Shown here piece by piece: positions 5,250 to 53,300 of a DNA stretch of 64,000 bases; position 1 is the stretch's first letter; each line of letters opens with the position of its first letter. The position numbers were made by a program, and so were the translations under genes. A model generated the notes under the pieces. It saw only the letters and a list, made by a program, of their open reading frames with translations. It searched no databases and was not told the origin of the DNA. Origin of the DNA: Owenia fusiformis (lineage: Eukaryota; Annelida; Polychaeta; Sabellida; Oweniidae); assembly GCA_903813345.2 (NCBI GenBank), contig CAIIXF020000011.1, forward strand, positions 13,189,754-13,253,753. The letters run 5' to 3'.

Positions 5250-5381
5250 CTATGATGAATTGTCTCTACAATATTGATTGGCAAGTGTCCGTAAAAATTT
5301 CAACTTCCGTTTCTCAACAGCTTGATGTAGGATCTCCTCTGTATTGCTACTGTTCAATTCATAGCAACTAATTGCCTTTAG
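5250..5381 (-). CDS. INTS8: INTS8 coding exon 24 (last)
   Basis: Codons 948-990 and the TAG stop at 5250-5252. It encodes LKAISCYELNSSNTEEIL and ends KLKFLRTLANQYCRDNSS, matching the vertebrate C-terminus. The acceptor is gtattttcag|CTA. Confidence 0.96.
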   Translation of the reverse strand, partial: LKAISCYELNSSNTEEILHQAVEKRKLKFLRTLANQYCRDNSS

Positions 5382-8300
5382 CTGAAAATACAATAAATTA
5401 ACATTACTATGGTAGCACGCATACTGTAACAATAGTATCTGATGATGTCATGGAGCAGAAAACTCCGCAACCATAACAGCACAGTATTTGCGTGCTTGCA
5501 GGCTCTACGCTGTTGGTAATACTGTAAACACTTTAAATCTGCGGCACCAATGTTCCGCGAAAGTTCCAAGAAAGGAATAATCTGTGACACTTGATTCACG
5601 TATCACATTACAGTTAATTCACCGGATTACCTTATCAATAGAGAGTTTAAGCTTGCGCTGTTTTTCACAACCTAAACATGAATGGAAAGTACATGACTCA
5701 ATATAGGAATGGGTCGAGCTCGCACTTTACTTTTGTATGCGCTAAATTCAACCATGAGAATAAAACCCTGTTTATCATGCCGATCAGGTAAATCCTAACG
5801 ATCTGAAAAATGAGACCTGTATCGCCCTTATTTCAAAAGTTATAGCATCCATCCAAATTGGAGGGGGTCTGAATTTCAACAAAACCCTGGTTACCATGGC
5901 AATCAATCAAAAACCAGCTCCCAAAACCCAAAGTCTTATACAAGACTTAAAATCAACATTTTAAAGATCTTTTTAAGATCTGAAATAAGATCTGAAAAAA
6001 TTAAACCTGTATCTCCCTTATTTCAAAAGTTATAACATCTATCCAATGTGGGGTTTCGAGTCTGGGAAATATACCCCAGTATAAGCCATGGACCCATAAC
6101 TACAAAATCTGAGATTCTATGGATTGATCTTTACATTAAATTGTTGCTAGTAGATTATTATTTTCCATTCAAACTAGCACATGTGTGACAAAGTATGCAT
6201 GAAATGATTCTTTCCTTCCTGAAAAAATGGCCTGAAAATCGACATCAAAAGGGTGTTTTATCTGTTTCCATGGCAACCACCATGACATGAAATTTTTATC
6301 ACATATTTAGTTACCCTATACCAATGTATCCTAGTAATTTGAAAACATTCCAACGAGTTTCTTGGAGTTCTGGACCAGTTTCATAGTTGGGGTCCAAATT
6401 ATAGCCCGTGGGGGGTAAAATGGCCACAAAATCTAAACGCTGAAAAACTAAGATCTAATAATCCATACAAATACGTAAAATCATACTTGCATCATGGAAA
6501 ATTATTACCCTAAAATCCCTCCGAGCGCACGCTTAAACCCTCATTCTGACAAGACTAAAGCCATTCGGGTTGTTTTCAGTTTTTACTCATTATAATTCCA
6601 GGGGACTTTTATTCTAGGCTAAATACTTGATTTATTTAAAGCATCTGTTTTTCATGTGCATTTAATTTTTGCGATGTTTTGTAAATGGCAAAAATGTGGA
6701 AATTAAGTGCACATAAAATTTATGTGTTTTACAGTATATCCATGTGAATATCATTAAAGAATTTTCATTCACAGCTGCAACAACAGGATATACATGATAT
6801 TAAATTGTATTATCTCATTCTACTTACCGCAATCTGTTGTTTATCTTCCTCCCCTCTGTTATGATGAAGATCTTCAAAAAGTTAAGTCCAAAACAAAAAT
6901 TATCAAAATCATTGAGATAACTAGGAGCAAGTGGTTTATAATTGATTTTAAATCAAAGTACATGTATACCCTAGCAAATAAAGACCAATGTTGAATATTT
7001 TCATTTTAGTTTTTGAATTTGGACAAAAATCAATAACATTTACTTTATAAGGTTAAATAAACTAAACCCCCTTTTACTCAAGCGAAAGTCATTTTTAAAA
7101 TATTTTCAAAGATCTTTCAAGTGGCTAAATTTAAAACTGAAATATCCCATCATAAAACATAATAAAAATATAAACAACAAGCCAAAAGGCATGAAAATAA
7201 TTTATACTTTCATGTACGAAACCCTACTTGAAATTACTTTTAATAAAAAAGATACTGGCTAAGTACTCCAGGATGGTGATATCCCATATGAAATCATAAT
7301 AGGTATCCATGGCATCACAAGTCCCTTTCTCTTGTGCTGACTTGAATGCAAGTGAGTAATCCACATCATCTAGCAGCTGGCATAGCACTATTACCTACAA
7401 TACACATGAGACTATATACCATGAGATGGATATGAATAACCCAGATCCGAGTAGATACATGGCTAAAGCAACAAACTTCAAATTTCCTGAAAATTTAATG
7501 GTGAAAGATGTGGGCTAAGCGAGTGGTGAGTTTGGGCGGGTCCTCCCTCCCAAGAAATTTTGGGAAAAGAGATTATAATTAAATATGACCTTAATTTAAT
7601 AACTCTTGCTTGACCACCTACTTCCCCCTAGAAATAAACCCTGATTTTTACTGAACTCAATAGGGTCAGATTTTGGTCCATTTTTTCCTGAAATTTCCTG
7701 AAGTTCCTAAAGACTAAGCCATGTAGGTAGTACCAGTTTCACCACCAGGTGGCTAATTCGGGTCAGATAACAGGGCAGGTTATGAGAAAGTAAACTTGAA
7801 TATTCATCAGTTCTAGTGGATCAATTTTCATATTACCTTTATGAATCTGATAGTTATACAAATTAAAATATGTCCAGTAAAAGGTAATATTATCTGTCCA
7901 ATATAAGAAAAGATATTTCACTTTTTGTGATTTTATAACATGGGGTCTATGGGGAATCTTCTTGACCTAGAAATCACACTTTCAAAGAAAATTAAATTTC
8001 AAAATTAATAAACACTTCTACAATTAAACAACAATTCTAGATGTAATTTTACATGTAGATTTCAAATATGACATCACTTTGACTCACATTGGACTGAATT
8101 TTGAATATTTAATGATGTAAATCAAGATTATTTCTACTCGCATCGAGTCTACTGATATCATGAAAATCAAATACTTTTACATGCACACAAGAGATTTTCC
8201 ACTGTTCAGAAAATGTGCTTCTTATTACGCAATTTTCTGGAAAGATATTCAAAATGGGTTCAGTTTTGTGTAATTGTAGTTCTTGGTTTCACACAACTTT

Positions 8301-11300
8301 AATACCCTGGTTGAAAAAAGCATGCAATTTAAATAAGAATTAAAAACATGGCAGCTACCTGTGTATGATTGTTGAGATTCGAGCAGCACTTGATCAGTCT
8401 ACGGTATAGGGCATCATTGTATATATTAAGAGGCACAGGTTGACTAAAGTAATGGCTACTCACTGCCCCGGCCTCTAAGTAGCTCTGTACTGCGGCCATA
8501 TACTGTTGACAGGCTAAAACATGCAATAAGCATACTGTTATAATGTTTGTTGTAACATCAGCTTTATTATGGAGATTATGGCAATTTGAACATTCGCCAA
8601 TTTCCACCTTTTCCAACATTTAAGAGAAATCTTCTGGAATCTGTTCTTTTTTTGTTTGAAAAGTACATATTACTGTATACATTTAAAGGGAATAGTTAAA
8701 ACTGTTCAAACACCTTGCACTTTGAATAAGTGGACTTAGAAAATTGATATACTTATTAAGAAACTCAGGATGCATCTTAAGAAATTTTAACCTATTGTCA
8801 AAACTGAGGCACAAAATTTTCATTTTATTTTTGTAGACATGTCGAAAAAATTAGGTGGCTCAAGTCTCTGGTTCCATGCTCTGTCACCCTGATGACATTG
8901 GAAATCTATGCAACATTATACAATACAATGTACCTACCATAGTGAATATCAGCCTTTGTACGTAACAGTTGAGCATTGTTGGGTGAGGTCTCGATAGAAT
9001 GATCCATCAATCTCCAAACACCATCCCCAAGAGCTGATTGGTTGATGCCACCTGAACTATAAATAGAATAAATTCAAATATATCAAGTGCCTCTCAGCCA
9101 ATCAGATTTAAGTAATTTGGTATAAATGAACAGCTGTATATGGAAAAAATTCTCCAAAGTTTGCAATTGTAGTACTGTGACATCACAGTAAAGTGATACT
9201 GACATTAAAACAACATGAAGCTATATTTGAGCTGAAATATATCATGCTTCCAATATGCTTATATGTATTATCATGGGCATTCAACTAGTTGAATGCCCAT
9301 GGTATTATGTAATATTTGAATTGCAATAAACAATCCTGTCAGTCTATATTGAATATGTATGCACTCATCACCAATAAAAGGTAATGTTATTACACTTCAA
9401 GCCTCTGACACTTTATCTACAGTATGACATTTCACATACCGTATTCTCTGTAATTAGCGCCCAGGGCATTTAGAAAATTGAAAATACATTATTTAGACCA
9501 TTCTAATAAGCACCCATGTATGAAAGAAATCAGATATCCCGAGGAATTTCATGTATGGCAATTTTTCTTGACAAGAATGCATTTTCTTCAACATATTTTT
9601 ATAATAATATGACAAGTGCTGTTATTGGAGAGAATACGGTAAAGATCGCTTAGACAATATTGACAGTGGTTGAAGACCCGTCTATGTCTAATTTATTTCC
9701 GGCACGCCCACTTTGTCATTATCGCCGATTACCTTCAATATTTCCACTAGAGACTGCTGGATATCGATCTAAAGTTATACATTATTTCTAATTTGATGAG
9801 AGATCATCATTATTCGTGCAAAAGTCGTGTAAAAGTCGAGAAACATTAAAAAGAAACCAGAAAGTTCACGACCTTGACATGCGCAGAACATCTGCGCAGT
9901 AGCTTTTGAAATTTCTGAATGCCGATAAAGAACAATTCCTTCATTCATTATGGATTATTATGATTCCTCGATGTTTCTTGAACTTTGTGAAGCGGGGTGG
10001 GCGCTTATTAGAGAGTGGGCGGTAATTACAGAGAATACGGTATGTTGCATCTTTGATATAATCACTAAATCTTACGTTGGTAGTGCAGTGGGCCAGAGAC
10101 TGATATATTCACAGGATATTTCACATGTTATATCTTTGATATAATCACTAAATCTTACGTTGGAAGTGCAGTGGGCCAGAGACTGATATATTCACAGGAT
10201 ATTTCACATGTTGTATCTTTGATATAATCACTAAATCTTACGTTGGAAGTGCAGTGGGCCAGAGACTGATATATTCACAGGATATTTCACATGTTGTATC
10301 TTTGATATAATCACTAAATCTTACGTTGGTAGTGCAGTGGGCCAGAGACTGATATATTCACAGGATATTTCACATGTTGTATCTTTGATAAAGTTACTAA
10401 ATCTTAAGTTGGTAGTGCAGTTGGCCAGAGACTGATATATTCACAGGATATTTCACATGTTGTATCTTTGATAAAGTTACTAAATCTTACGTTGGTAGTG
10501 CAGTGGGCCAGAGTCTGATATATTCAAAGGATATTTCACATGTTGTATCTTTGATAAAGTTACTAAATCTTACGTTGGTAGTGCAGTGGGCCAGAGACTG
10601 ATATATTCACAGGATATTTCACATGTTGTATCTTTGATAAAGTTACTAAATCTTACGTTGGTAGTGCAGTGGGCCAGAGACTGATATATTCACAGGATAT
10701 TTCACATGTTGTATCTTTCACAATGCTGTAGAGTTTAGTCACACAAGACAGCAGAACTCTCAAGCATAATGAGCCCTTATAAAATAGAAATATAACATGC
10801 ATAATATTACCCTTTTATAACTTAGGCTATGATACAGCAAATAACTTAATTTGGTTGGTTTTGTATCAAGGATAACAGTGAAAATAAAACAAATAAGAAA
10901 TTGTGTAAAATGTTTACTTAATTAACATGTAGTTTGGGTATTCTAACATTCATATTGCCCTAAAATTATCCACATTCAACATAACTAGTATTGTGCCTTG
11001 TTCTTACTTGTATTTTGAGGGCAAATGTGAGGAAGGAATGCTGGGATAGTTGTTCCATACTTTTCTGTCCCCCTGTACCACTGTATAGTTGAACCACTAA
11101 AAATGGAAGTGGATTATAGATTTTCACAAGGCATTAACATGCAAAATGTCACTACCTGCCATTAGTTATGGATGCTGACAAGTTTATGAAAAGTGTTCAG
11201 ATTAACATTAGACAGATTAATTTTTCAAATATGACTGTTCATTACTCAAATTGTGAGGTGTTCTGGCATTTTAAGGGTTTTCTAACATGAGAGTCAATGG

Positions 11301-14300
11301 GAGGAAAAATTGGGACTAAAAAGTGTTCAGATTGGGAGGTGTTTGGATTAGCCATTCAAATATACAGGTTTTATTGTACTAAATAATTAAATGAATTATA
11401 TGTACAGTATTCTTCTTATGGGGGTACAGTGGTGAATATGGTATAATTGTACCTGTGTCCCATAGATTTCTACTTGGTTTGCGAGCATTCTGTATGTCTG
11501 GTAGTTCCTTGCATGTCTCTGCTACAGCCCTGGCAAACTGAAATATCAACAAACTCAAAGGGTGATTCATATAGGGCTATTTAGGACACATTTCTTTCCA
11601 AAAACAAAAAATTGGATAACATTTTTTTAGTTTATACCAGTATTTGATTAAAAAGCTGATGTTCTAATTCCATTATTATATTTCATGGCAAAATGAATAA
11701 TTCTTTGAAGTGAGCACCATCTATTTAGCATTTTAAAGCTATTTTACACCTCAACAAGTCAATATCCCATTAACGGTTTCTAAATAAATGCAGGTCCTTA
11801 CAATTTTGGAATATGTCAGGTGATATCTCATCAGATGTTAATGAAAAAACTCCATTTTCTCTCTACTGAAACGAATCATCAACGTGACGAAAAGTAACCA
11901 CCTGGTTAAACACAATGATTTCATTTTCATGTTCAACTTATATAAATTGAACACCTTTATGGTTTTTCAAATTTTGATAATGCACTGATATACCCCCCTA
12001 TGGGTATCTAGTGTGTAAATGTAATACTTGATCATAATAATTATGTTATATGAATAAAAAAAAAGAATAAAAAAAGTGTGACAATTTGTTACAGACACCA
12101 AAATGCAAACTGATCGATCACTGGCCCTAACTAGTGGTAATGACAAATTGATCTCACACTGATACATGAGTGTGGTTGAACCTTAAATGAATTTCATGTT
12201 ATTTCTTCAATGAAAATATTGATTAAGTATGTCAATGTCATGGTTCACTTTGTGTCAGTTTGTGTTGTTTAAGCACTTGTTAATTTTTGGTGAAGTTTTT
12301 TATAAAAATTCCCACCCCTGTCTGTTCTCGCAGGGGGGTCTCAAAAATGTGAATGGTTTTACCCTGCAATCCCAAGCACAACACAGTGGTATTCTATTAA
12401 AACACTAAAATGGCATATAGCCACAATCCACTCATATGATATTAAGTGCAGCACATACATATGAGGGTTACCTGTATGTATTCGTTGGTGGTGTTGGTAG
12501 CGTGGCAGATGTATTCCCATTCCTCCACACACAGTAGGAAAGCCAGCGAGTATGTCATTGTCTCCAGGCCTGGTTTGATATCTACAATGTAAGAAGTATA
12601 TAGTTGAATTATTTACAAATGTTTACATAGTACTATTTATTTGCATGTACATAAAGTCTCCTAAATTGCATCTAAATTCTTTGTTTTTGGTGTTTTTACC
12701 TGATATTTTCTAGAATGGAATGTAGCATTCTATTTTTGGTTTTTGGAAAATCACCACCAATGGTTAAGTTGGTAATAACATGAAAACGTCAAAGTTATTT
12801 GCCCAATGATCAAAATTGTAATAATGGGTAGGAATATCCTCCTAGAAGTGTCCTAAAATATCATATGCATTTATTTAGCACACTTTAATGTAGACTAAGG
12901 GGAGATGATGGATGTAGTAGACTATATTTAATTTACAATGTTACGATATAGAAAAAATTCAAATGTATTTTTACCAAAATTGAGGCTCAATTTAGCCACA
13001 TTTTAAGGTGGTAGGTATACGCAATTTAACAAACAGAGCATAGAAAATTTGGTTCGAGTGAAGCTGCAAGTGATGGAATGTTTTTAAGATGTGCACCTAC
13101 CTGAAAAAAAATTCTGGGGAGATCACTGACCTGCAATTTGGTACAGATGCCAAATGGGTAAAGACGGGTCCATCTATACCCATAAAAATATAACCATGAG
13201 AAAGAAGAAAAGAGCTTTAAAATGCTTTTTATTTGAAACTTCTAGCTCAATTTTGAAGAAAGTTGCATCAATTTTTGTAAAATTCAAGATAAATCTTAAT
13301 TTTTTGGCTTGTTTATGCCACAAACGCACACCCCAGACTGAAAACAAAATTTTTTGGCAATCGCCCCCCCCCCTGACTGAAAGCTGGCTACACCCCTGAT
13401 GTGTCACCACTTGTGGTGGTCACATACAAAACAGTTTCATATCATTTCCAACATACATGTATATCAATGCTATACCTGATTCTAATCTGTATGCTGTTAC
13501 ACATGCCTTGGCTTTCTTCAGTAGTTCTGGTTTAGCAACCCCCTCCATAACAGTGCCATGTCTCTGATAATACAGAAGGTCAGCTAGTAGCACCTCCCAG
13601 CGAATCAGTTTAACAAGCTTGTAGGAGAACTCTTTAATTGTCTTTTCAGCTGTCAGTAGTAACTCTTTGGCTTTGCTGTATAGCTGAAATACATAATCTT
13701 AAAAGTACTTTTTGAAATTGTAAAGGATTAAAGGCAGTCTAGAGTAAATTATTAAAAATGCAATACGAAAGAGTTTTCGCACAATGCATTATAGCTAAAA
13801 CGTATCCGAATCTTGCTTTATCTGAACTACTACGCATAAATCTGGTAAATACGTTACAGATTTAATATATGTAAGGCTAAGAACGTTGTGCGAAAACTTG
13901 ATTAGAAAATGGAGAAAATGTGATGAATATTTACATAAACACAGCTTTAACATGACAAAATATCACTACCTGGTTTTGCATTAACAAAAGTTCAACCATT
14001 TTTCACACCAACACAACAAATGCAGGTAACAACAAAAAGTGGAGGCTTAAAAATATGTCAGCACTTTTTTGGTGGTGACTGAACCTAGATCTTTGTGTTA
14101 AAGTAAGCATCAATAAACTGTTTTGGAAATGAATTTCTGCAATATGTTTTTCATTGTTATTTTTGCAAAAGTAGAGATATTAAAAAAGCATTTTTAGTCG
14201 ACTCTTGACTCTACTTGCACCACAAATTATGTCATCGTTTGAGAGCTAATTTCTGTTACAATATAACAACCTACCTTCATTTGTAAGGCCTGTCTGGCCT

Positions 14301-17300
14301 TAGCAACCACTATAAAGCACCAACTTTGGTTAAGGCCCTGAGGGAAACTGTCAAAAATGGCCTGGAGCTCACGATGTAACTTCCACTGAAAAACATGAAC
14401 AGTGATCCTCAGTGCAGCATTTGATCAATTTTAATATTTTTATTTACTTTTCTTATTTTTTATTTTATCTTTACAATCTTATTCAATTTATTATTTCGTC
14501 CTATTTAAGTCCTAAGGGGAACTATCAAAGATGCACCGCAGCCAATAATGAAAGTTCACAAAATTTATCTGTATGGGTCTTAGATGACAAGGTATACTAA
14601 CAATTAATTTTCATGAAACTTACATACCTTTTCATTTAGACCTTTAACAGCCCAGCCCAACTTTGGGTGCAACTGTTGTAGAATAGCTTTAATTTCAGCA
14701 GGATCGTAGGACAGTAGAAGAGCCTTCTCTAGAACTCCTGGTTCTAAAATATATACATGCATCTTTAGAGCTGCATTAAATATAGGATATAAGTGGTCAG
14801 GGGAGGGAGCAATGTATCAAATGGAGCTAAGTTGAAGTAAATATCTAGATGCATAAATAACATTGAAATAGTTGAATATTTAAGTTGTATAAAAGTCTGA
14901 CAGAGATGAAAGAATTCCATTGCCAATTTCTGGTCCAATATAGTGTTTTAAGTCTGATTCTGGAAAACATGTGAGATCCCAATCAAAAAGCTATCAAGAA
15001 TGGCAAAAGACTTCCACTGGAAAAATACAATATGCAGAGATCAAAAAGCTCTCCATTACAGCAAAACAAAATGCACACAAGAAATACACAGGGGATCAAA
15101 ATGACCAGTCAGTGATTGAAAAACCAAACTAATACATACCATTACTATGCGTTTCCCAATGGTTCAATGAAGTGTCAGGCTTGAAACAAGGTCTGCTCTC
15201 TGCAGCAAGTAATATCTGTAAGCTGTCACTGTTCTCTATGTATTGCATAAGGTTGTTCTGGGTCAACAATGGAAGTATCTCAGATGTCTGTACACTTAGT
15301 CTTGATAACACACTCCTGTTTAATTTAAGTAACAGTTATTAGGTATAATACATAGGCAAGAAGTACCCTTACTCCAATATTAATACAAATACAGGGTGCA
15401 CAAAAAACAGGGTCAAAGAAAAGTTTATTAACTCGATCAATCTTGCACACACTGCCTTTGTATTACACAATTATTAAGTCCATTTAATGTGAATTTTGTA
15501 TTGAAAGTTTGATGAATCTGCCAATTAAGTCAAAAAGTACATTAATTCACAAAACATGGTACAAGTGGACATCTCTCCTCTCTATATTCAGTTGAGCATG
15601 AGTGAGTTTAAAAGGGTTTCACAAAAATGTACTTATTTGAAAATGCAGGATACTGCTTGTTGAGATGAAAATCATTATTTTCAAACATACTTTCCTAGCC
15701 AGAAAAGTATAATCCACCAGTAACTGCTGTTTTATTAAGTATTACCTGAGGAAGTTTCTGATGTGATGCTTCTGATCTTTAGTGGCCATTCTACCTGCCC
15801 TGTCAAGAGCCTAGAAGAAAAAGAAATTGTACCATCTGTAATTCAAACCAAATAAATAATGATAGTATTACAGCCAGGATCCTATATAGAATAATCTTTG
15901 CCTTGGTAAAAAAAAAAAAAAAATTCAAAACAATTTTCACAGTTGCTACTTTTATTTCTTAATATATGTTGATAAACTCAATATTGGATTAGTGTAGAAT
16001 TATTTTCTCAACCCTTATAAAGGGAAAATTCTTTGAAACTAGTTCCTACTCTTCAAGCAAATATACAATGGCCTTCCAACAAAATCATGTCCTTAATGTG
16101 TATGTATGTAAATTATTTAAAATGTTGCTTCAATATTAAATCCCCAGGATTAAATCAGATAATGTTACTGGCAAAGGGTTGTCACTATACATTTCCAAAT
16201 CAATATTCCCTGCTAGAGAAGCCCTGTGTTCTTTTATGTGCACTCATACATAGACATACAAGTACACACTATAGCCTTTTTACGACTTGCGGACCACTCA
16301 GTCAAACACCCTGAAGTATATTAAGCAAACAAGTAAATTAAGTCTTGCCTGAACCGGGGATCGAATCCAGGACCTATTGCGTAAGAGGTACACGCGCTAC
16401 TACTGAGCGATGTGGGTGGACTAATGCCATCTTTATATCAGGTTAAAACCATTTCAGTTTCCTTGCCTTTTTTCTCCTTTTCTCAAAACCTGTTGCAAAT
16501 ATTGAAATAACACACATACATGTACTACACCAACACATGGACTTACTTTGAACAGGAATGCGAGTTGTTGGCTGGTGAAGTCATGTATCATTGCCATATA
16601 GTGTGTGCAGACTTGAGGTTCTGCATCCAATAGTCTGTGTACAGTGTTACATGTATATAGTGATATATACACATCCCTACAAAATAAACAATGGGAAAGT
16701 CAGCCAAATAATATCACATTGTTAACACAATAAAAACATTTTTCATTGCAAGAACATATCATGTTTACCCCATGTGGCCAAGAGTGGTCTATTTGAACAG
16801 TGAATTTGTTAATGAATTGAATGGTTGATTCATTAACCCTTAAACGATTAGGCTGTATGTTAGGCCCTATGATCTTGGAAACAAAAAATCATAGGAGGTT
16901 GCATTAGCTATCATTGGAAAGGTTATCCGATTCCTAGTATTTTGAGCTTACTTATAATTATCAAAACTACTGACAATTTGGGTATTTCAGTAATTTGACA
17001 AGCTCTAACTTTCCTCCTTGGGGGGTTATAAGTCACCAACAAGCCTAATTCAATTTTAAGAAAAGCCAGGATGATAGAGAGTGAAAAATGTTGGAAGCAA
17101 TTTTTAATACCTGTCATATATGAGATCATCTTGCAATGTCTGTCTGTAGGATCTGGACAGTTCTCTAGTTTCATTGTCCTTCAGGAGTAAATCAACAAGG
17201 GCATCCTAAAACATGCAAAGCATACATAGAGATTATCCTATATGAGGTTCAGGATATTTGGATTATCCCGAGGCCAATATAATATATCTGCCCGAGGGCC

Positions 17301-38300: not shown

Positions 38301-41300
38301 GCCCAAAAACGGACAAATTAGTTGACAGAATAAAATCCCTCACTGTTTATCAAGAGCAGAACAAATGTAATGTTCCAGATGGACTGGTTGATTCAATACC
38401 ACCAGAAGGTAACTTTCAATATTCTATATCATGGTTCATTTTTTTAATACCAGTATATTGTTTTTGTGACCATGCTTTAAAGTAATCATCTACTTCAAAT
38501 AGATTCACTAGTATAACTAAGTGCAATCACTTACTACACAGGGATGAGACATGCCGAGTACTTAAATAGTACTCATGGCATTTTAACACTAACTGAGTAC
38601 TCTTTTCAGTAAATATTAGTACTAAATGAGCACTTATGACATAAGTACTGATTTATTGCATGTTTTAGTACTAAATGAGTACTTATATGATGAGTGATAA
38701 AATAGCAGTAATTTCATTGATTTTTAGCGCTAAATGAGTACTCATTATCATATCATGAGTGATAAAGTAGTACGAGGGGTGATCCAAAAGTCTTGGACAC
38801 CCTGCTCTATTTTTGTTGGTTTTTGACAAAATTACTTTAAACTTTCCAATAATAAAAACCAACAACCTAAATACTTTGTGTATTAATTTCATGGAGAAAG
38901 GATATATTTTATATAGTTTTCTGGATAGTTTTTAATACAGGGACCCTGCCACCCGGAACGGTATTCGCACATGGCAACTTTCAGCCTTAAATGTTGCCAC
39001 CATTTCACTTGTTTCCCAAGTCTTGACCACTATATTTCTTTGAATTTTGAATGTTAAACCATGTTAGTTTACTCCCTTTGTCACTAGGCAACCAATTAAT
39101 TGTGTTTTAATTATAATGTCACATATGACAATGACCGTACATGTCAAATTCTAAGAAAATGCCATCGGACAAGCAACCCTCATTCTGGTATCATTTTTGC
39201 TGCAAGATGGCTGCTGAAATGCAGTACACGAAAGAAATCAAAGTGGAACAAAAAATACTACAAGATTATTTTCACTATTATTGACCTTGAGCAGCTACTA
39301 TATGCACGATACAGTCTATGTATGGGTTCGTGTGATTTTCTTCCTTATCTCCAAGTTGAAAGGAGGGTTGAAAGAAAATGTTTTTTTACTCATTGGATGA
39401 GGTCAGGAGTGGCACTCCAGCAGCATTTGTATCACATAAGCAATGGTGGTGTCATAAATGTCTTCTATTCATTGATAAAGCGGTATGAAAATGTGTCCAA
39501 ATTTGTAGAAAATATGTTGAAAAGTAGGTATTAATATGTGAAAATGATGATGGCAGATGACACTCAGATTGAAAATCGAAAATTCTCTCATATCATGGCT
39601 GGTTTAGGTTGTGCACCTGCAACTAAAGTACTTGCCATATTATAACAGTTGTGATGTGATTTGCTATATCTAAATACCGTTCCGGGTGGCAGAGACCTGG
39701 TATTAAAAAATATTTAGAAAAGTAGCTAAAATATATTATTTTCTGTTGAAACTTATACACAAAGTTGTTCAGATGTTGATCTTTATTATCTGAAAGTTTC
39801 ATGTAATTATATTAGAAAATAGCAAAGTTAGAGTGGGGCGTCCAAGACTTTTGGATCACCCCTCGTACTTATAAAATTGTTTTTCAGCACTAAATGAGTA
39901 CTCATATCATGAATGAGTGCTCATGAGTGCACTTTTGCCAGAGTGCTAATTAGGAGGCCCCATCGGGGGGCCTCCTATCAATTTTGTAGATATTATTCTT
40001 TATTCTTTATTCTTTATTATTAGGAGGCCCCATCGGGGGGCCTCCTATCAATTTTGTAGATATTATTCTTTATTATTTATTCTTCCTCCCTCTTTTTCTC
40101 CTACTTCCAACTAACTTTTAACTAGCTACTACATAGTCCTACTAGGGACCTGGGCTGAACTTGGCGGGAAAGGAATTTTTATCTAGGTCAAGGTCAAAAT
40201 CTAGGTCAAATCTAAGTTTTTTCAAGTTTCTCAAATCCTGACACTACACTTCAATATTTTTGGCTGAATTTTTGCATACAGATAGATATTAGTATTCTAT
40301 TAGTCTTAGCCTTTTGCCGTCTAGAGAAATTTTGCCTAGATTTTGAGATATTGAAGGTCAAAAAAGGTCAAAAAAGGTCTTTTTTCAACTTGCTTCAAAT
40401 TGACCAAATTTTTTTTTAAAACTCATCTACAAGTTCTCAGGATTCCAAATCTGACCTTACTTTTGACCTTTGACCTTTGGTTGACCTTCAGTGACCTCCG
40501 AAAGGTCAAGAAAGTTGATTTTTCAAATGGATTTTCTGGATTCAAATTTAGGTATATTTATTCACAAAAGTCCTTCTGAGGTCTAAAAAAGTAAAATTTG
40601 CGAGGTCAAAGGTCAAGGTCATCAAACGAAATCACAAACTGTGTTTTCTAAGTTTCTCAAAATTGGAGACTACAAATCAATTTTTTTTACTGAAAGTCAG
40701 AATATATATTCCTCTAAAGGTTCTACACATATTAGCAATTGACTATTTATTAAAATTTTGCTCCAGTTGTGAGATATTAGAACTCAAAAACTGAAAAAAG
40801 GTCAAATTTCGAAATTTTTCAAGGATAAATTTCAACTTGCTCTAAATTGACCAAACTTTTTTTTAAAAAGCATCTACAAGATCTCAGGAACTCAAATATG
40901 TCCTTACTTTTGACCTCCGACCTTTGGTTGACCTTCGGTGACCTTCGAAAGGTAAAAAAAGTTGTTTTTTCAAATTGATTTTCTGGATTCAAATTTAGGT
41001 ATATTTGATCACAAAGGACCCACTGAGGTCTAAAAAAGTAAAATTTTCAAGGTCAAAGGTCAAGGTCATCAAACTAAATCACAAACTGTGTTTTCTAAGT
41101 TTCTCAAAATTGGAGACTACAAATCAATTTTTTTTACTGAAAGTCAGAATATATATTCCTCTAAAGGTTCTACACATATTAGCAATTGATTATCTATTAA
41201 AATTTGGCTCCAGTTTTGAGATATTATAGCTCAAAAACTGAAAAAAGGTCAAATTTCAGAATTTTTCAAGGTCAAATTTCAACTTGCATTAATTCGACCA

Positions 41301-44300
41301 AATCTTTTTTAAAAATCATCTACAAGTTGTCTGGAGTTCATACATGATCTTAAATTTGATATTTAACCTTTAGTTAACCTTCTAATTGGCAATGCCTACA
41401 GGGCCTCCGTAAGATTGCTTGCAATCTTCTAGTTATTAGGAGGCCCTCCTGAAAGGGCCTCCTATAGCTTTTGTAGCTTTTCTTTATTCTTTATTCTTTA
41501 TTTTTATTAGGAGGCCCTCCTGAAAGGGCCTCCTATAGCTTTTGTAGCTTTTCTTTATTTATTTATTTATTATTATTCTATCAAAGCAGTTTTCTCCTAC
41601 TTTCAACTAGCTTTCAACTTTCTACTATATGCTCCTACTAGATACCTGGTTTGATCTTGATGGGAAAATATTTCATATCTAGGTCAAGGTCAAAGGTCAA
41701 AATCTAGGTCAAATCTAAGTTTTTTTTCAAGTTTCTCAAGTTTGTCATTATACTTCATTATTTCTTGCGATGAATTAAACTGAAACTACATTTAAGTATT
41801 CTCTACAAATTGTTCACTATATGTCAGCATTAAATTTTTACCGTTTTTGAGATATTTGACGTCAAAAAACGGTCAAAAGAGGTCATTTTTCAAATTGCTT
41901 CAATCTGACCAAATTTTTTTTTAAAAATCATCTACATGTTCCCAGGAGTCCAAATCTGACTTCAGATTTGACCTTTGACCTTTAGTTGACCTTCAGTGAC
42001 CTACGAAAGGTCAGAAAAGTTGATTTTTCAAATTGAGTCTTTGGATTCAAATTTAGTTCAGTCTAATTACAAAAAGCCTACTGAGGTCTAAAAAAGTAAA
42101 AATTTCAAGGTCAAAGGTCAAGGTCATCAAATTAGGTCACAAACTGTGCTATCTAAGTATCTCATAGTTCAAGACTACAAATCAATATTTTTAATTGAAA
42201 GTCAAGATATACATTCCTCTAAGGGTTTTACACATATTAGCTATTGACTATTATTAAAATTTTGTCCCAGTTTTGAGATATAAGATCTCAAAAACTGAAA
42301 AAGGTCAATTTTTCAAAGTTTATAAGGTCAAATTTTAACTTGCTTCAAATTCACCCAAATTTTTTTAAAAAATCATCTACAACTTCTCAGGAGTTCATAT
42401 TTAACCTCAGATTTGACATTTGACCTTTAGTTGACCTTCAGTGACCTTCGAAAGGTCAGAAAAGTTGATTTTTCAAATTAAGTGTTTGGATTCAAATTTA
42501 GGGTTAGCCTAATAATAAAAGACCTACTGAGCTCTAAAGCAGTAAAATGTTCAAGGTCAAGGGTCACGGTTATCAAATTAGGTCAAAGGTCAAAATCTAG
42601 GTCAAATCTAAATTTTTTTCAAGTTTCTCAACTTTGTCCTTATACTTCATTATTTCTTGCGATGAATTAAACTGAAACTACTTTTTAGTATTCTCTACAA
42701 ATTGTTTACAATATGTCAGCATTAAATTTTTACCATTTTTGAGATATTTGACGACAAAAACGGTCAAAAAAGGTCATTTTTCAACTTGCTTCAATCTGAC
42801 CAAATTTTTTTTTAAAAATCATCTACAAGTTCCTAGGAGTCCAAATCTGACCTCAGATTTAACCTTTGACCTTTAGTTGACCTTCAATGACCTTCGAAAG
42901 GTAAAAAAAGTTTTTTGAAAATCATCTACAAGTCCTCAGGAGTTCACATCTGACCTCAGATTTGATATTTGTCCTTTAGTTGACCTTCAAATTGTCAAAA
43001 ATGCCTAAGAGGGCCTCCGTGAGATTGCTTGCAATCTTCAAAAGTCTAGTTCTTCTTCTTCTTCTTCTTCTTATTCTATCAAAGCATTTTTCTCCTACTT
43101 CCAACTAGCTTTCAACTACCTACTATATGATCCTACTAGGAACCTTGGCTGAAATTGGGGGGAAAATATTTTTTATCTAGGTCAAGGTCAAAGGTCAAAA
43201 TCTAGGTCAAATCTAAGTTTTTTTCCATGTTTCTCAAGTTTGTCATTATACTTCATTATTTCTTGCGATGAATTAAACTGAAACTACATTTAAGTATTCT
43301 CTACAAATTGTTCACTATATGTCAGCATTAAATGTTTACCGTTTTTGAGATATTTGACGTCAAAAAACGGTCAAAAGAGGTCATTTTTCAACTTGCTTCA
43401 ATCAGACCAAATTTTTTTTTAAAAATCATCTACAAGTTCCCAGGAGTCCAAATCTGACTTCAGATTTGACCTTTGACCTTTAGTTGACCTTCAGTGACCT
43501 TCGAAAGGTCAGAAAAGTTGATTTTTCAAATTGAGTCTTTGGATTCAAATTTAGGTCAGTCTAATTACAAATAGCCTACTGAGGTCTAAAAAAGTAAAAA
43601 TTTCAAGGTCAAAGGTCAAAGTCATCAAATTAGGTCACAAACTGTGCTATCTAAGTTTCTCATAGTTCAAGACTACAAATCAATATTTTTAATTGAAAGT
43701 CAAGATATACATTCCTCTAAGGGTTGTACACATATTAGCCATTGACTATTTATTAAAATTTTGTCCAAGTTTTGAGATATTCGACGTCAAAAAACGGTCA
43801 AAAGAGGTCATTTTTCAACTTGCTTCAATCTGACCAAATTTTTTTTTAAAAATCATCTACAAGTTCCCAGGAGTCCAAATCTGACTTCAGATTTGACCTT
43901 TGACCTTTATTTGACCTTCAGTGACCTTTGAAAGGTCAGAAAAGTTGATTTTTCAAATTGAGTCTTTGGATTCAAATTTAGGTCAGTCTAATTACAAAAA
44001 GCCTACTGAGGTCTAAAAAAGTAAAAATTTCAAGGTCAAAGGTCAAAGTCATCAAATTAGGTCACAAACTGTGCTATCTAAGTTTCTCATATTTCAAGAC
44101 TACAAATCAATATTTTTAATTGAAAGTCAAGATATACATTCCTCTAAGGGTTCTACACATATTAGCCATTGACTATTTATTAAAATTTTGTCCCAGTTTT
44201 GAGATATAAGAGCTCAAAAACTGAAAAAGGTCAATTTTTCAAAGTTTATAAGGTCAAATTTTAAATTTTAACTTGTTTCAAATTCACCCAACTTTTTTTT

Positions 44301-47300
44301 AAAAATCATCTACAACTTCTCAGGAGTTCAGAAGTAATCTCATATTTTACCTCAGATTTGACATTTGACCTTTAGTTGACCTTCAGTGACCTTCGAAAGG
44401 TCAGAAAAGTTGATTTTTCAAATTGAGTGTTTGGATTCAAATTTAGGGTTAGCCTAATCATAAAAGACCGACTGAGCTCTAAAGCAGTGAAATTTTCAAG
44501 GTCAAGGGTCACGGTTATCAAATTAGGTCAACGGTCAAAATCTAGGTCAAATCTAAATTTTTTTTCAAGTTTCTCAAGTTTGTCCTTATACTTTATTATT
44601 TCTTGCGATGAATTAAACTGAAACTACACTTAAGTATTCTCTACAAATTGTTCACAATATGTCAGCATTAAATTTTTACTATTTTAGGGATATTCGACGT
44701 CAAAAAACGGTCAAAAAAGGTCATTTTTCAACTTGCTTCAATCTGACCAATTTTTTTTTTAAAAATCATCTACAAGTTCCTAGGAGTCCAAATCTGACCT
44801 CAGATTTAACCTTTGACCTTTAGTTGACCTTCAATGACCTTCGAAAGGTAAAAAAAGTTGATTTTTCAAATTGAGTCTTTGGATTCAAATTTAGGTCAGT
44901 CTAATTACAAAAGACCTACTGAGGTCTAAAAAAGTAAAACTTTTCAGGGTCAAAGGTCAAGGTCATCAAATTAGGTCACAAACAGTGCTATCTAAGTTTC
45001 TCATAGTTCAAGACTACAAATCAATATTTTTAATTGAAACTCAAGATAAACATTCCTCTAAGGGTTCTTCACATATTAGTAATTGACTATCTATTAAAAT
45101 TTTGTCCCAGTTTTGAGATATAAGACTTCAAAAACTGAAAAAGGTCAAATTTTCAAATTTTATAAGGTCAAATTTTTAACTTGCTTCAAATTGACCCAAC
45201 TTTTTTTTAAAAATCATATACAACTTCTCAGGAGTTCAGAAGTAATCTCAGATTTGACATTTGACCTTTAGTTGACCTTCAGGGACCTTCCAAAGGTCAG
45301 AAAAGTTGATTTTGAAAATTGGGTTTTTGGATTCAAATTTAGGTCAGCCTAATTACAAAAGACCTACAGAGGTCTAAAAGAGTAACATTTTCAAGGTCAA
45401 TGGTCAAGGTCATCAAATTAGGTCACAAACTGTGTTATCTAAGTTTCTCAAAGTTCGAGACTACAAATCAATATTTTTATTCAAAAGTCAGAATATACAT
45501 TCCTCTAAGGGTTCTTCACATATTAGCAATTGACTATCTAATAGAATTTTGTCCCAGTTTTGAGATATAAGAGCTCAAAAATTGAAAAAAGGTCAATTTA
45601 AAAAATTTTCAAGGTCAAATTTAAACTTGCTTCAAATTGACCAAATCTATTTTTAAAATTCATCTACAAGTTCTCAGGAGTTCACAGCTGACCTCATATT
45701 TGACATTTGACCTCAAGTTGGCCCTCAAATTGTCAAAAATGCCTAAGAGGGCCTCCGTGAGATTGCTTGCAATCTTAAAAGTCTAGTTAGGAGGCCCTCC
45801 TGAAAGGGCCTCCTATAGCTTTTGTAGCTTTTCTTTATTCTTTATTCTTTATTTATTATTCTTCCAAAGCATTTTTCTCCTACTTCCAACTACCTTTCAA
45901 CTACCTACTATATGATCCTACTAGTAACCTTGGCTGGAATAGGGGGGAAAATATTTTTTATCTAGGTCAAGGTCAAAGGTCAAAATCTAGGTCAAATCTA
46001 AGTTTTTTTTCAAGTTTCTCAAGTTTGTCATCATACTTCATTATTTCTTGCGATGAATTAAACTGAAACTACATTTAAGTATTCTCTACAAATTGTTCAC
46101 TATATGTCAGAATTAAATTTTTACCGTTTTTGAGATATTTGACGTCAAAAAACGGTCAAAAAAGGTCATTTTTCAACTTGCTTCAATCTGACCAATTTTT
46201 TTTTCAAAATCATCTACAAGTTCCAAGGAGTCCAAATCTGACCTCAGATTTGACCTTTGACCTTTAGTTGACCTTCAGTGACCTTCGAAAGGTCAGAAAA
46301 GTTGATTTTTCAAATTGAGTCTTTGGATTCAAATTTAGGTCAGTCTAATTACAAAAAGCCTACCGAGGTCTAAAAAATTAAAAATTTCAAGGTCAAAGGT
46401 CAAGGTCATCAAATTAGGTCACAAACTGTGCTATCTAAGTTTCTCATAGTTCAAGACTACAAATCAATATTTTTAATTGAAAGTCAAGATATACATTTCT
46501 CTAAGGGTTCTACACATATTAGTCATTGACTATTTATTAAAATTTTGTCTCAGTTTTGAGATATAAGAGCTCAAAAACTGAAAAAGGTCAATTTTTAAAA
46601 GTTTATAAGGTCAAATTTTAACTTGCTTCAAATTCACCCAACTTTTTTTTAAAAATCATCTACAACTTCTCAGGAGTTCATATTTAACCTCAGATTTGAC
46701 ATTCGACCTTTAGTTAACCTTCAGTGACCTTCGAAAGGTCAGAAAAGTTGATTTTTCAAATTAAGTCTTTGGATTCAAATTTAGGTCAGTCTAATTACAA
46801 CAAGCCTACTGAGGTCTTAAAAAGTAAAAATTTCAAGGTCAAAGGTCAAGGTCATCAAATTAGGTCACAAACTGTGCTATCTAAGTTTCTCATAGTTCAA
46901 GACTACAAATCAATATTTTTAATTGAAAGTCAAGATGTACATTCCTCTGAGGGTTCTACACATATTAGTCATTGACTATTTATTAAGATTTTGCCCAGGT
47001 TTTGAGATATAAGAGCTCAAAACTGAAAAAGGTCATTTTTTAACTCGCTTCAATCTGACCAAATTATTTTTTTAAAATCATCTACAAGTTCCTAGGAGTC
47101 CGAATCTGACCTCAGATTTGACCTTTGACCTTTAGTTGACCTTCAATGACCTTCGAAAGGTCAGAAAAGTTGATTTTTCAAACTGAGTCTTTGGATTCAA
47201 ATTTAAGTCAATCTAATTACAAATAGCCTACTGAGGTCTAAAAAAGTAAAAATTTCAAGGTCAAAGGTCAAGGTCATCAAATTAGGTCACAAACTGTGCT

Positions 47301-50300
47301 ATCTAAGTTTCTCATAGTTCAAGACTACAAATCAATATTTTTAATTGAAATTCAAGATGTACATTCCTCTGAGGGTTCTACACATATTAATCATTGACTA
47401 TTTATTAAAATTTTGTCCCAGTTTTGAGACATAAGAGCTCAAAAGCTGAAAAAGGTCAATTTTTTAAAGTTTATAAGGTCAAATTTTAACTTGCTTCAAA
47501 TTCACCAAACTTTTTTTTAAAAATCATCTACAACTTCTCAGGGGTTCATATTTAACCTCAGATTTGACATTTGACCTTTAGTTGACCTTCAGTGACCTTC
47601 GAAAGGTCAGAAAAGTTGATTTTTCAAATTGAGTTTTTGGATTCAGATTTAGGGTAAGCCGAATCATAAAAGACCCACTGAGCTCTAAAACAGTAAAATT
47701 TTCAAGGTCAAGGGTCACGGTTATCAAATTAGGTCAAAGGTCAAAATCTAGGTCAAATCTAAATTTTTTTCAAGTTTCTCAACTTTGTCCTTATACTTCA
47801 TTATTTCTTGCGATGAATTAAACTGAAACTACATTTAAGTATTTTCTACAAATTGTTTACTATATGTCAGCATTGAATTTTTACCATTTTTGAGATATTT
47901 GACGTCAAAAAACGGTCAAAAAAGGTCATTTTTCAACTTGCTTCAATCTGACCAATTTTTTTTTAAAAATCATCTACAAATTCCCAGGAGTCCGAATCTG
48001 ACCTCATATTTGACCTTTGGCCTTTAGTTGACCTTCAATGACCTTCGAAAGGTAAGAAAAGTTGATTTTTCAAATTGAGTCTTTGGATTGAAATTTAGGT
48101 CAGCCTGATTGAAAAAGACCTACTGAGGTCAAAAAGGGTAAAACTTTTCAAGGTCAAAGGTCAAGATCATGAAATTAGGTCACAAACTGTGCTTTCTAAG
48201 TTTCGCAAAGTTCGAGACTACATACCAATATTTTTACCCCGAAGTCGAAATATACACATCCCTCTAAGGGTTCTACACATATAAGCAATTGACTATCTAA
48301 TAGAATTTTGTCCCAGTTTGAGATATAAGAGTTCAAAAATTGAAAAAAGGTCAATTTCAAAATTTTTCAAGTTCAAATTTAAACTCGCTTCAAATTGACA
48401 AAATCTTTTTTTGAAAATCATCTACAAGTTCTCAGGAATTCACATCTGACCTCAGATTTGATATTTGTCCTTTAGTTGACCTTCAAGTTGTCAAAAATGC
48501 CTAAGAGGGCCTCCGTGAGATTGCTTGCAATCTTCAAAAGTCTAGTTCTTCCTAAGCATTTTTCTCCTACTTCCAACTAGCTTTCAACTACCTACTATAT
48601 GATCCTACTAGTAACCTTGGCTGGAATAGGGGGGAAAATATTTTTTATCTAGGTCAAGGTCAAAGGTCAAAATCTAGGTCAAATCTAAGTTTTTTTTCAA
48701 GTTTCTCAAGTTTGTCCTTATACTTCATTATTTCTTGCGATGAATTAAACTGAAACTACATTTAAGTATTCTCTACAAATTGTTCACTATATGTCAGCAT
48801 TAAATTTTTACCGTTTTTGAGATATTTGACGTCAAAAACGGTCAAAAAAGGTCATTTTTCAACTTGCTTCAATCTGACCAAATTTTTTTTTAAAAATCAT
48901 CCTCAAGTTCCCAGGAGTCCGAATCTGACCTCAGATTTGACCTTCGTCCTTTAGTTGACCTTCAGTGACCTTCGAAAGGTCAGAAAAGTTGATTTTTCAA
49001 ATCGAGTCTTTGGATTCAAATTTCAGTCAGTCTAATTACAAAAAGCCTACTGAGGTCTAAAAAAGTAAAAATTTCAAGGTCAAAGGTCAAGGTCATCAAA
49101 TTAGGTCACAAACTGTGCTATCTAAGTTTCTCATAGTTCAAGACTACAAATCAATATTTTTAATTGAAAGTCAAGATGTACATTCCTCTGAGGGTTCTAC
49201 ACATATTAGTCATTGACTATTTATTAAAATTTTGTCCCAGTTTTGAGGTATAAGAGCTCAAAAACTGAAAAAGGTCAATTTTTTAAAGTTTATAAGGTCA
49301 AATTTTAACTTGCTTCAAATTCACCCAACTTTTTTTTAAAAATTATCTACAACATCTCAGGAGTTCATATTTAACCTCAGATTTGACATTTGACCTTTAG
49401 TTGACCTTCAGTGACCTTCGAGATGTCAGAAAAGTTGATTTTTCAAATTAAGTTTTTGGATTCAAATTTAGGGTAAGCCTAATCATAAAAGACCCACTGA
49501 GCTCCAAAACAGTAAAATTTTCAAGGTCAAGGTTCACGGTTATCAAATTAGGTCAAAGGTCAAAATCTAGGTCAAATCTAAATTTTTTTCAAGTTTCTCA
49601 ACTTTGTCCTTATACTTCATTATTTCTTGCGATGAATTAAACTGAAACTACATTTAAGTATTTTCTACAAATTGTTCACTATATGTCAGCATTGAATTTT
49701 TACCATTTTTGAGATATTTTACGTCGAAAAACTGTCAAAATAGGTAGTTTTTCAACTTGCTTCAATCTGACCAAATTCTTTTTTAAAAATCATCTACAAA
49801 TTCCCAGGAGTCCGAATCTGACCTCATATTTGACCTTTGACCTTTAGTTGACCTTCAATGACCTTCGAAAGGTAAGAAAAGTTGATTTTTCAAATTGAGT
49901 CTTTGGATTCAAATTTAGGTCAACCTGATTAAAAAAGACCTACTGAGGTCTAAAAGGGTAAAATTTTTCAAGGTCAAAGGTCAAGATCATGAAATTAGGT
50001 CACAAACTGTGCTTTCTAAATTTCGCAAAGTTCGAGACTACAAACCAATATTTTTAACCCGAAGTAGAAATATACACATCCCTCTAAGGGTTCTACACAT
50101 ATAACCAATTGACTATCTAATATAATTTTGTCCCAGTTTGAGATATAAGAGTTCAAAAATTGAAAAAGGTCAATTTCGAAATTTTTCAAGGTCAAATTTA
50201 AACTCGCTTCAAATTGACAAAATCTTTTTTTGAAAATCATCTACAAGTTCTCAAGAGTTCACATCTGACCTCAGATTTGATATTTGTCCTTTAGTTGACC

Positions 50301-53300
50301 TTCAAATTGTCAAAACTCCGTGAGATTGCTTGCAATCTTCAAAAGTCTAGTTTTTTTTCTTATTCTTCCAATGCATTTTTCTCCTACTTCCAACTAGCTT
50401 TCAACTACCTACTATATGCTCCTACTAGTAACCTTGGCTGGAATAGGGGGGAAAATATTTTTTATCTAGGTCAAGGTCAAAGGTCAAAATCTAGGTCAAA
50501 TCTAAGTTTTTTTTCAAGTTCCTCAAGTTTGTCCTTATACTTCATTATTTCTTGCAATGAATTAAACTGAAACTACATTTAAGTATTCTCTACAAATTGT
50601 TCACTATATGTCAACATTAAATTTTTACCGTTTTTGAGATATTTGACGTCAAAAAACGGTCAAAAGAGGTCATTTTCAACTTGCTTCAATCTGACCAATT
50701 TTTTTTTTAAAAATCATCTACAAGTTCCAAGGAGTCCAAATCTGACTTCAGATTTGACCTTTGACCTTTAGTTGACCTTCAGTGACCTTTGAAAGGTCAG
50801 AAAAGTTGATTTTTCAAATTGAGTCTTTGGATTCAAATTTAGGTCAGTCTAATTACAAAAAGCCTACTGATGTCTAAAAAAGTAAAAATTTCAAGGTCAA
50901 AGGTCAAGGTCATCAAATTAGGTCACAAACTGTGCTATCTAAGTTTCTCATAGTTCAAGACTACAAATCAATATTTTTAATTGAAAGTCAAAATATACAT
51001 TCCTCTAAGGGTTCTACACATATTAGCCATTGACTATTTATTAAAATTTTGTCCCAGTTTTGAGATATAAGAGCTCAAAAACTGAAAAAGGTCAATTTTT
51101 CAAAGTTTATAAGGTCAAATTTTAACTTGCTTCAAATTCACCCAACTTTTTTTTAAAAATCATCTACAACTTCTCAGGAGTTCATATTTAACCTCAGATT
51201 TGACATTTGACCTTTAGTTGACCTTCAGTGACCTTCGAAAGGTCAGAAAAGTTGATTTTTCAAATTGAGTTTTTGGATTCAAATTTAGGGTTAGCCTAAT
51301 CATAAAAGACCTACTGAGCTCTAAAGCAGTAAAATTTTCAAGGTCAAAGGTCACGGTTATCAAATTAGGTCAAAGGTCACAATCTAGGTCAAATTTAATT
51401 TTTGTTCAAGTTTCTCAAGTTTGTCCTTATACTTCATTATTTCTTGCGATGAATTAAACTGAAACTACATTTTAGTATTCTCTACAAATTGTTCACAATA
51501 TGTCAGCATTAAATTTTTACCATTTTTGAGATATTTGACGTCAAAAACGGTCAAAAAAGTTCATTTTTCAACTTGCTTCAATCTGACCAAATTTTTTTTT
51601 AAAAATCATCTACAAGTTCCTAGGAGTCAAAATCTGACCTCAGATTTAACCTTTGACCTTTAGTTGACCTTCAATGACCTTCGAAAGGTAAAAAAAGTTG
51701 ATTTTTCAAATTGAGTCTTTGGATTCAAATTTAGGTCAGCCTAATTACAAAAGACCTACTGAGGTCTAAAAAAGTGAAACTTTTCAGGGTCAAAGGTCAA
51801 GATCATGAAATTAGGTCACAAACTGTGCTATCTAAGATTCGCAAAGTTCGAGACTACAAACCAATATTTTTAATCCGAAGTCGAAATATACACATTCCTC
51901 TAAGGGTTCTACACATATAAGCAATTGACTATCTAATGGAATTTTGTCCCAGTTTGAGATATAAGAGTTCAAAAGCTGAAAAAATGTCAATTCGAAATTT
52001 TTCAAGGTCAAATTTAAACTCGCTTCAAATTGACAAAATCTTTTTTTGAAAATCATCTACAAGTTCTCAGGAGTTCACATCTGACCTCAGATTTGATATT
52101 TGTCCTTTAGTTGACCTTCAAATTGTCAAAAATGCCTAAGAGGGCCTCCGTGAGATTGCTTGCAATCTTCAAAAGTCTAGTTTATTCTTCCTCCCTCTTT
52201 TTCTCCTACTTCTAGCTAGGTCTGAGTTAACTCTTATATGCTCCTACTAGGAACCTTGGCTGAACTTGGCGGGAAAGGAATTTTTATCTAGGTCAAGGTC
52301 AAAGGTCAAAATCTAGGTCAACTCTAAGTTTTTTTAAAGTTTCTCAAATCCTGACACTACACATCAATATTTTTGGCTGAATTTTTGCATACAGATAGAT
52401 ATTAGTATTCTATTAGTCTTAGCCTTTTGCCGTCTAGAGAAATTTTGCCTAGATTTTAAGATATTGAAGGTCAAAAAAAGGTCAAAAAAGGTCTTTTTTC
52501 AACTTGCTTCAAATTGACCAATTTTTTTTTAAAACTCATCTACAAGTTCTCAGGATTCCAAATCTGACCTTACTTTTGATCTTTGACCTTTGGTTGACCT
52601 TCAGTGACCTCCGAAAGGTCAAAAAAGTTGATTTTTCAAATCGATTTTCTGGATTCAAATTTAGGTATATTTATTCACAAAAGATCTTCTGAGGTCTAAA
52701 AAAAGTAAAATTTGCAAGGTCAAAGGTCAAGGTCATCAAAGGAAATCACAAACTGTGTTTTCTAAGTTTCTCAAAATTGGAGACTACAAATCAATTTTTT
52801 TTACTGAAAGTCAGAATATATATTCCTCTAAAGGTTCTACACATATTAGCAATTGACTATTTATTAAAATTTTGCTCCAGTTTTGAGATATTAGAACTCA
52901 AAAACTGAAAAAAGGTCAAATTTCAAATTTTTTCAAGGTCAAATTTCAACTTGCTCTAAATTGACCAAACTTTTTTTTAAAAAGCATCTACAAGATCTCA
53001 GGAACTCAAATCTGACCTTAGTTTTGAACTATGACCTTTAGTTGACCTTCAGTGACCTTCGAAAGGTCAAAAAAGTTAATTTTTCAAATTGATTTTCTGG
53101 ATTCAAATTTAGGTTTCTTCAATCAGAAAAGATATACTGAGGTCTAAAAAAGTAAAACCTGTAAGGTCAAAGGTCAAGGTCATCAAACAAGATCACAAAC
53201 TGTGTTTTCTAAGTTTCTCAAAGTTTGTGACTACAAATCAATATTTTTGAATTAAAGTCAGGATATATATTCCTCTAAAGGTTTTACACATAATAACAAT

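Follow-up and report, generated by a model that had tools for sequence, protein, structure and literature searches.

Which of eight copies of one splice donor does a conserved gene use, and how does such an array arise and persist? INTS8 is an essential gene, and in the 64,000-nucleotide stretch of Owenia fusiformis DNA analyzed here (the window), the end of one of its coding exons is repeated in tandem together with its donor. The locus therefore raises the question of what the downstream donors would do to the transcript, and whether their presence calls for a function.

The INTS8 donor array

Tandem Repeats Finder reported an array at 10042-10718 of the window (period 83, 8.2 copies, 97% matches, 0 indels, score 1214), and a separate repeat search recovered the same 83-bp spacing. 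Read on the minus strand, the unit comprises the last 62 bp of the INTS8 exon, the donor CCAAC/GTAAGA (the slash marks the exon end) and 21 bp of intron. Eight full copies begin at 10718 and follow in steps of 83, with exon-end positions at 10657, 10574, 10491, 10408, 10325, 10242, 10159 and 10076. The motif CCAAC/GTAAGA is kept in seven of the eight units, and GT is changed to TT at the exon-end position 10408. These results bear out a sequence-only reading of this stretch, which had described a repeated donor array with this unit, this exact spacing and this single donor loss. As its units are arranged head to tail, fall within 10-100 bp and are present in several copies of high identity, the array is a minisatellite. 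When the unit plus the flank upstream of it was searched against the assembly, eight matches were obtained, all of which belong to the array, at a single locus.

Pairwise comparison of the copies showed 0-6 differences per 83 positions, units 1 and 2 being identical, as are units 6 and 7. Two blocks were observed, units 1-4 and units 5-8, which are set apart by three intronic changes within five bases and differ at 3-6 of 83 positions. This block structure is typical of unequal exchange, and the recent amplification claimed earlier is a fair description of copies this similar. Deviations from the unit consensus amounted to 19 of 664 positions (6 of 496 exonic and 13 of 168 intronic), and 12 of the 13 intronic ones are the three block changes, each counted four times. 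The donor nine-mer was changed at 1 of 72 positions compared to 19 of 664 overall, too few changes for a test of selection. Over positions 5250-16700, which cover most of INTS8, 677 of the 751 tandem-repeat bases belong to the array. For the window as a whole, tandem repeats make up 28% of the sequence, and satellite-like repeats of about 430-450 bp were noted in long runs at 40383-53495.

Table 1. Features of the INTS8 locus (window positions) and exon-edge arrays with homology support at other loci.
Feature	Position	Strand	Description
Array	10042-10718	-	Eight units of 83 bp and 13 bp of a ninth one; Tandem Repeats Finder and separate repeat search
Unit 1	10636-10718	-	Functional exon end 10657 and first donor
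Unit 4	10387-10469	-	Donor lost, GT to TT at 10408
Unit 8, last full unit	10055-10137	-	Donor intact (10076)
Ninth partial unit, first piece	10041-10054	-	Includes one TA of the target-site duplication
MITE, inverted repeats	9439-10040	.	602 bp, flanked by a TA target-site duplication; insertion lies within the ninth unit
Ninth partial unit, second piece	9426-9438	-	Beyond the MITE; TGTGAAATGTC compared with TGTGAAATATC, plus TA
Preceding INTS8 exon	11008-11096	-	Joined-exon model and human INTS8 match
INTS8 exon with array (exon 19 of the sequence-only reading)	10657-10775	-	119 bp, acceptor ATAAG/GG, first donor CCAAC/GTAAGA
Next INTS8 exon	8938-9056	-	Acceptor at 9056; in-frame join from the first donor
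L033			NIF phosphatase, 4.9e-6
L034	C1, 59.174 Mb		INTS9, 7.4e-17; unit ~56 bp, in-frame stop after one intron base
L035			MATE1, 3.5e-7
L036	C2, 14.995 Mb		Matrixin, 2.3e-18; 72-bp units, open and in frame
L038			Caprin C-terminal, 8.3e-7
L041			Laminin G, 4.8e-4, below the curated cut-off, part of the frame only
L043			Rieske, 3.4e-8
L047			KIAA0895-like, 4e-7
L048	C4, 22.689 Mb		SMC4, 7.9e-32; unit ~32 bp, in-frame stop after one intron base

Reading frame and donor strength

Exons 11096-11008, 10775-10657 and 9056-8938 and the next one downstream have compatible phases when joined. The joined exons contain the Pfam domain TPR_INTS8 (5.7e-44) and match human INTS8 colinearly over 143 residues without a gap (7.7e-30), which identifies the gene as INTS8, in agreement with the sequence-only reading. 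This gapless alignment depends on the first donor (10657) and on the acceptor at 9056, the one proposed earlier. From donors 2-8, by contrast, the reading goes ...LPT and then TAA before the next exon is reached; this TAA sits one base after the first donor, and the immediate in-frame stop predicted for the later donors is thus present in the exon model. The unit length (83 = 2 mod 3) does not preserve the frame either. The stop argues against any productive use that the downstream donors might have.

The U1 duplex energy was -4.6 kcal/mol for each of the seven intact array donors, compared to -4.5, -7.1, -7.7 and -10.2 kcal/mol for the other four INTS8 donors tested, which places the array donor among the weaker of the five. 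Since all seven pair equally with U1, strength alone gives no preference for the first. Tandem systems of identical donors can favour the intron-proximal donor, which counts against use of the first one. SRSF1 is reported to favour the intron-proximal donor (PMC5585400). Use of the 62-bp copies as cassette exons is unlikely because the AG sites in the unit have weak tracts, with a pyrimidine fraction of 0.47-0.59 compared to 0.61-0.78 at four real acceptors (one of the four being placed one base off).

Arrays at other exon ends

The assembly has 12 large contigs of 32-62 Mb, which hold about 477 of its 498 Mb. A random sample of twenty 10-kb pieces from the 12 largest contigs (199,977 unmasked bases, 9.1% of them in tandem repeats) gave 22 Tandem Repeats Finder rows with a period of 40-200 and at least 4 copies. 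Merging these rows and their longer or shorter periods by hand left 15 loci, among them L020 and the zinc-finger-like L032, which extrapolates to about 37,000 in the genome. We then scanned mechanically the 23 array loci of the twenty pieces and the window for a donor near the array edge behind an open frame, and obtained six rows. Two of them are INTS8 and L024; the remaining rows (L018, L023, L032 and the window array on the plus strand) were taken for chance by eye. L024 (L024:4340-4671; G000 C6, about 28.004 Mb) is a second exon-edge donor array, with 5.1 copies of a 65-bp unit composed of 42 bp of exon, CAG/GTAGGT and 23 bp of intron. Its exon had no Pfam or PDB homologue past the cut-off. 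The gene belongs to a family clustered on C6: diverged relatives of this exon were found at 11 further sites on C6 and C9, and at four of them the match stops no more than three bases from the donor. The tandem array was absent from all four of the paralogues fetched, each of which has the donor once.

When we searched for CAGGTRAGT occurring three times with gaps of 41-71 between copies, and used the reversed motif as control, there were 261 raw matches compared to 63 for the reversed motif, and the exact CAGGTAAGT pattern gave 157 compared to 60, also as raw matches. The first 100 of the 261 matches correspond to 16 loci from C1 to C8:16.8 Mb, all of which were read at their 5' edge; six further CAGGTAAGT loci (C8 beyond 16.8 Mb, C9 and C11) lie outside these 16. 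By locus, the reversed motif is not clearly the rarer one, being found 14 times in all, and 10 times on the stretch where CAGGTRAGT has 16 listed; we therefore claim recurrence at exon ends and not enrichment of the motif. Among the 16 loci listed, nine have an exon end with homology support at the start of the array (Table 1). The exon share of the unit is about 25-66 bp in seven of these nine and about five or six in L043 and L047. An open frame with no homologue over the cut-off was observed at L037, L039, L040 and L042, and no clear exon at the 5' edge of the array at L044-L046. Overall, the INTS8 array most likely belongs to a class of exon-edge splice-donor arrays that recurs across a minisatellite-rich genome.

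Substantial use of downstream donors would favour units divisible by three. Such units were present at 3 of 14 loci (P of three or fewer = 0.26 at one third) and at 1 of the 11 loci backed by homology or by paralogues; the comparison leaves out L039 and L044-L046, which have no recognised exon in the unit. Unit lengths thus show no excess of multiples of three, which fits use of the 5'-most donor. A stop lies past the first donor in 12 of the 14 loci, L036 and L042 being open in the sequence covered. Use of later donors at L036 would extend the matrixin enzyme by a 24-residue repeat.

If arrays form at any position with the density found in the sample, and assuming 100,000-200,000 donors and 65-bp units, about 490-980 arrays spanning a donor are expected by chance, or 0.2 to 0.4 per 200 kb. 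One was seen, which is compatible with this expectation, although a sample of one carries little weight. No special force is needed for the origin of such arrays; selection against them seems not to be strong. Two long arrays with the consensus CAG/GTAAGT in many units were also noted, one at C9:14148774-14150662 (~51-bp units over ~1.9 kb) and one at C8:16840457-16842840 (~54-bp units over ~2.4 kb).

Origin and persistence of the array

The explanation that we favour, with a probability of about three in four, is a minisatellite across the exon end that is tolerated as near-neutral, with the 5'-most donor being used and a MITE landing later. The minisatellite would have been born across the 3' end of the INTS8 coding exon, where a segment reaching from the exon end through the donor to intron base 21 was duplicated in tandem, and slippage or unequal exchange may have raised the number of copies to eight before the young MITE inserted in the last partial unit. 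The first copy would always retain the whole exon and its donor, whatever happens behind it, so that selection would remove the array only weakly. Moreover, because the unit spans from exon into intron, gain or loss of units would be invisible in the mRNA if the 5'-most donor is used. The alternative already raised by the sequence-only reading, that the first donor always wins, is the one that fits best.

The downstream donors might instead be used at a set rate and give premature stops, array length thereby tuning INTS8 through nonsense-mediated decay. Seven of the eight donors are indeed intact with the same U1 pairing, and each later one leads to the TAA, as this mechanism would have it. 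However, one donor is dead, and the donors of the decoy units show no sign of conservation beyond the general similarity, in a comparison with too few changes for a real test. Unrelated genes share the architecture with multiples of three near the chance level of 1 in 3, and a young array would be ill suited to tuning an essential gene. No feature of the sequence requires tuning of INTS8 in this way, which is possible, unsupported and, in our judgement, unlikely. A broader version, in which exon ends are hot spots of minisatellite birth and hundreds of genes carry arrays that vary between individuals, with leaky donor choice acting as a length-coded dimmer through nonsense-mediated decay, appears distinctly unlikely.

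U1 bound near an exon can help its recognition, and the extra U1 sites downstream might thus aid definition of this exon, whose donor pairs weakly with U1, while remaining unspliced themselves. We regard this as very unlikely, since the same type of array lies on consensus CAG/GTRAGT donors elsewhere, where such help would be unneeded, and since it does not require the 62 bp of exon to be repeated in each unit.

The array is known from one assembly, and fewer true copies could have been expanded by the assembler. Such an artefact is highly improbable given that the units carry private and block-shared variants, that the last partial unit contains a young MITE, and that many loci were assembled with arrays of other units.

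Order of arrival of the MITE

The element next to the array has terminal inverted repeats, a TA duplication (9437-9438 and 10041-10042) and many near-identical non-autonomous copies, as expected of a MITE; we take it to be Tc1/mariner-like, the superfamily name being provisional. A first look at the assembly gave 829 candidates, and the 40 that were scored, the window copy included, are about 600 bp long with 98-100% identity. TA flanks the element in all eight loci read (window copy included), and its start is CCGTATT in seven loci and CCTTATT in one. Compared to the majority of seven other close copies, chosen among the best matches, the window MITE differs at 3 of 602 positions.

The sequence-only reading had placed the end of the array directly against this element at 10041. 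The MITE does adjoin the array, but the array continues past it to 9426, with 13 bp of the ninth copy (11 of the unit and TA). Beyond the MITE, TGTGAAATGTC matches the next 11 unit bases, TGTGAAATATC, at 10 of 11 positions and at the exact expected place, and the claim of a ninth unit rests on this match. With at most one mismatch allowed, TGTGAAATATC occurs at 14 of the 128,000 positions on the two strands, a count that takes in the copies within the array itself. The 60 bases past the MITE, taken as a whole, were mildly better than shuffles (57 of 2000 equally good). Continuation of the array well past the ninth partial unit found no support, as 862 of 1000 shuffles were as good as the 90-base tail when compared to the unit. 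The ninth partial unit carried two extra bases at the MITE site.

Since the MITE landed within the ninth partial unit, it is younger than the array, or at least than the first duplication that gave rise to the array; this location and its near-identity to other copies show that the element arrived afterwards. We therefore rejected the earlier proposal that the MITE seeded the array, which is scarcely credible even though the two adjoin: the TA-flanked site lies inside a unit whose homology resumes on the far side, the element is that close to its copy majority while the array blocks differ at 3-6 of 83 positions, and its end sequence was not found in the 10-kb piece of L024, which bears an array of its own.

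Significance and comparison with known systems

Choice among several identical donors has mostly been studied in artificial minigenes. Here, one animal genome provides a natural series of near-identical donors, from few to dozens, at regular spacings and in ordinary as well as conserved genes. Should they be tolerated through first-donor use, arrays of the INTS8 type would constitute a natural test of donor choice. Junctions at such arrays would reveal the winner (first, last or any donor) and the extent to which exon length constrains the choice, as well as the load of mis-splicing that a conserved gene bears and the reason why donor-spanning minisatellites survive.

Our searches of open-licence full texts found none that treats exon-edge donor arrays as a class; what is new with respect to these texts is the recurrence in one genome and a unit that is mostly coding. 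Intronic minisatellites or VNTRs, such as those of earthworm metallothionein introns (PMC12783039), likewise consist of tandem intron units of minisatellite size, whereas the first INTS8 unit is a functional coding exon with its donor. In DOK7 intron 4, two donors also compete within one intron and the wrong choice shifts the frame, but the sites are eleven bases apart and of unequal strength, with no array of identical donors (PMC5585400).

The closest precedent for the INTS8 array is human IFI6, whose units are 12 bp long, preserve the frame and resemble the donor motif. Its minisatellite reportedly provides multiple splice donors, according to a study of 1995. Two downstream repeat units act as donors and three mRNAs result, as stated in a later text (PMC4526556). 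In both genes, the end of an exon is the start of a tandem array whose units provide splice donors; the INTS8 array starts at the end of a real coding exon and repeats the donor of that exon. In contrast to IFI6, its unit is 83 bp long, 62 bp of which are coding exon, does not keep the frame and runs into a stop, and the INTS8 case lies in a conserved gene and shows an arrangement that recurs in the genome.
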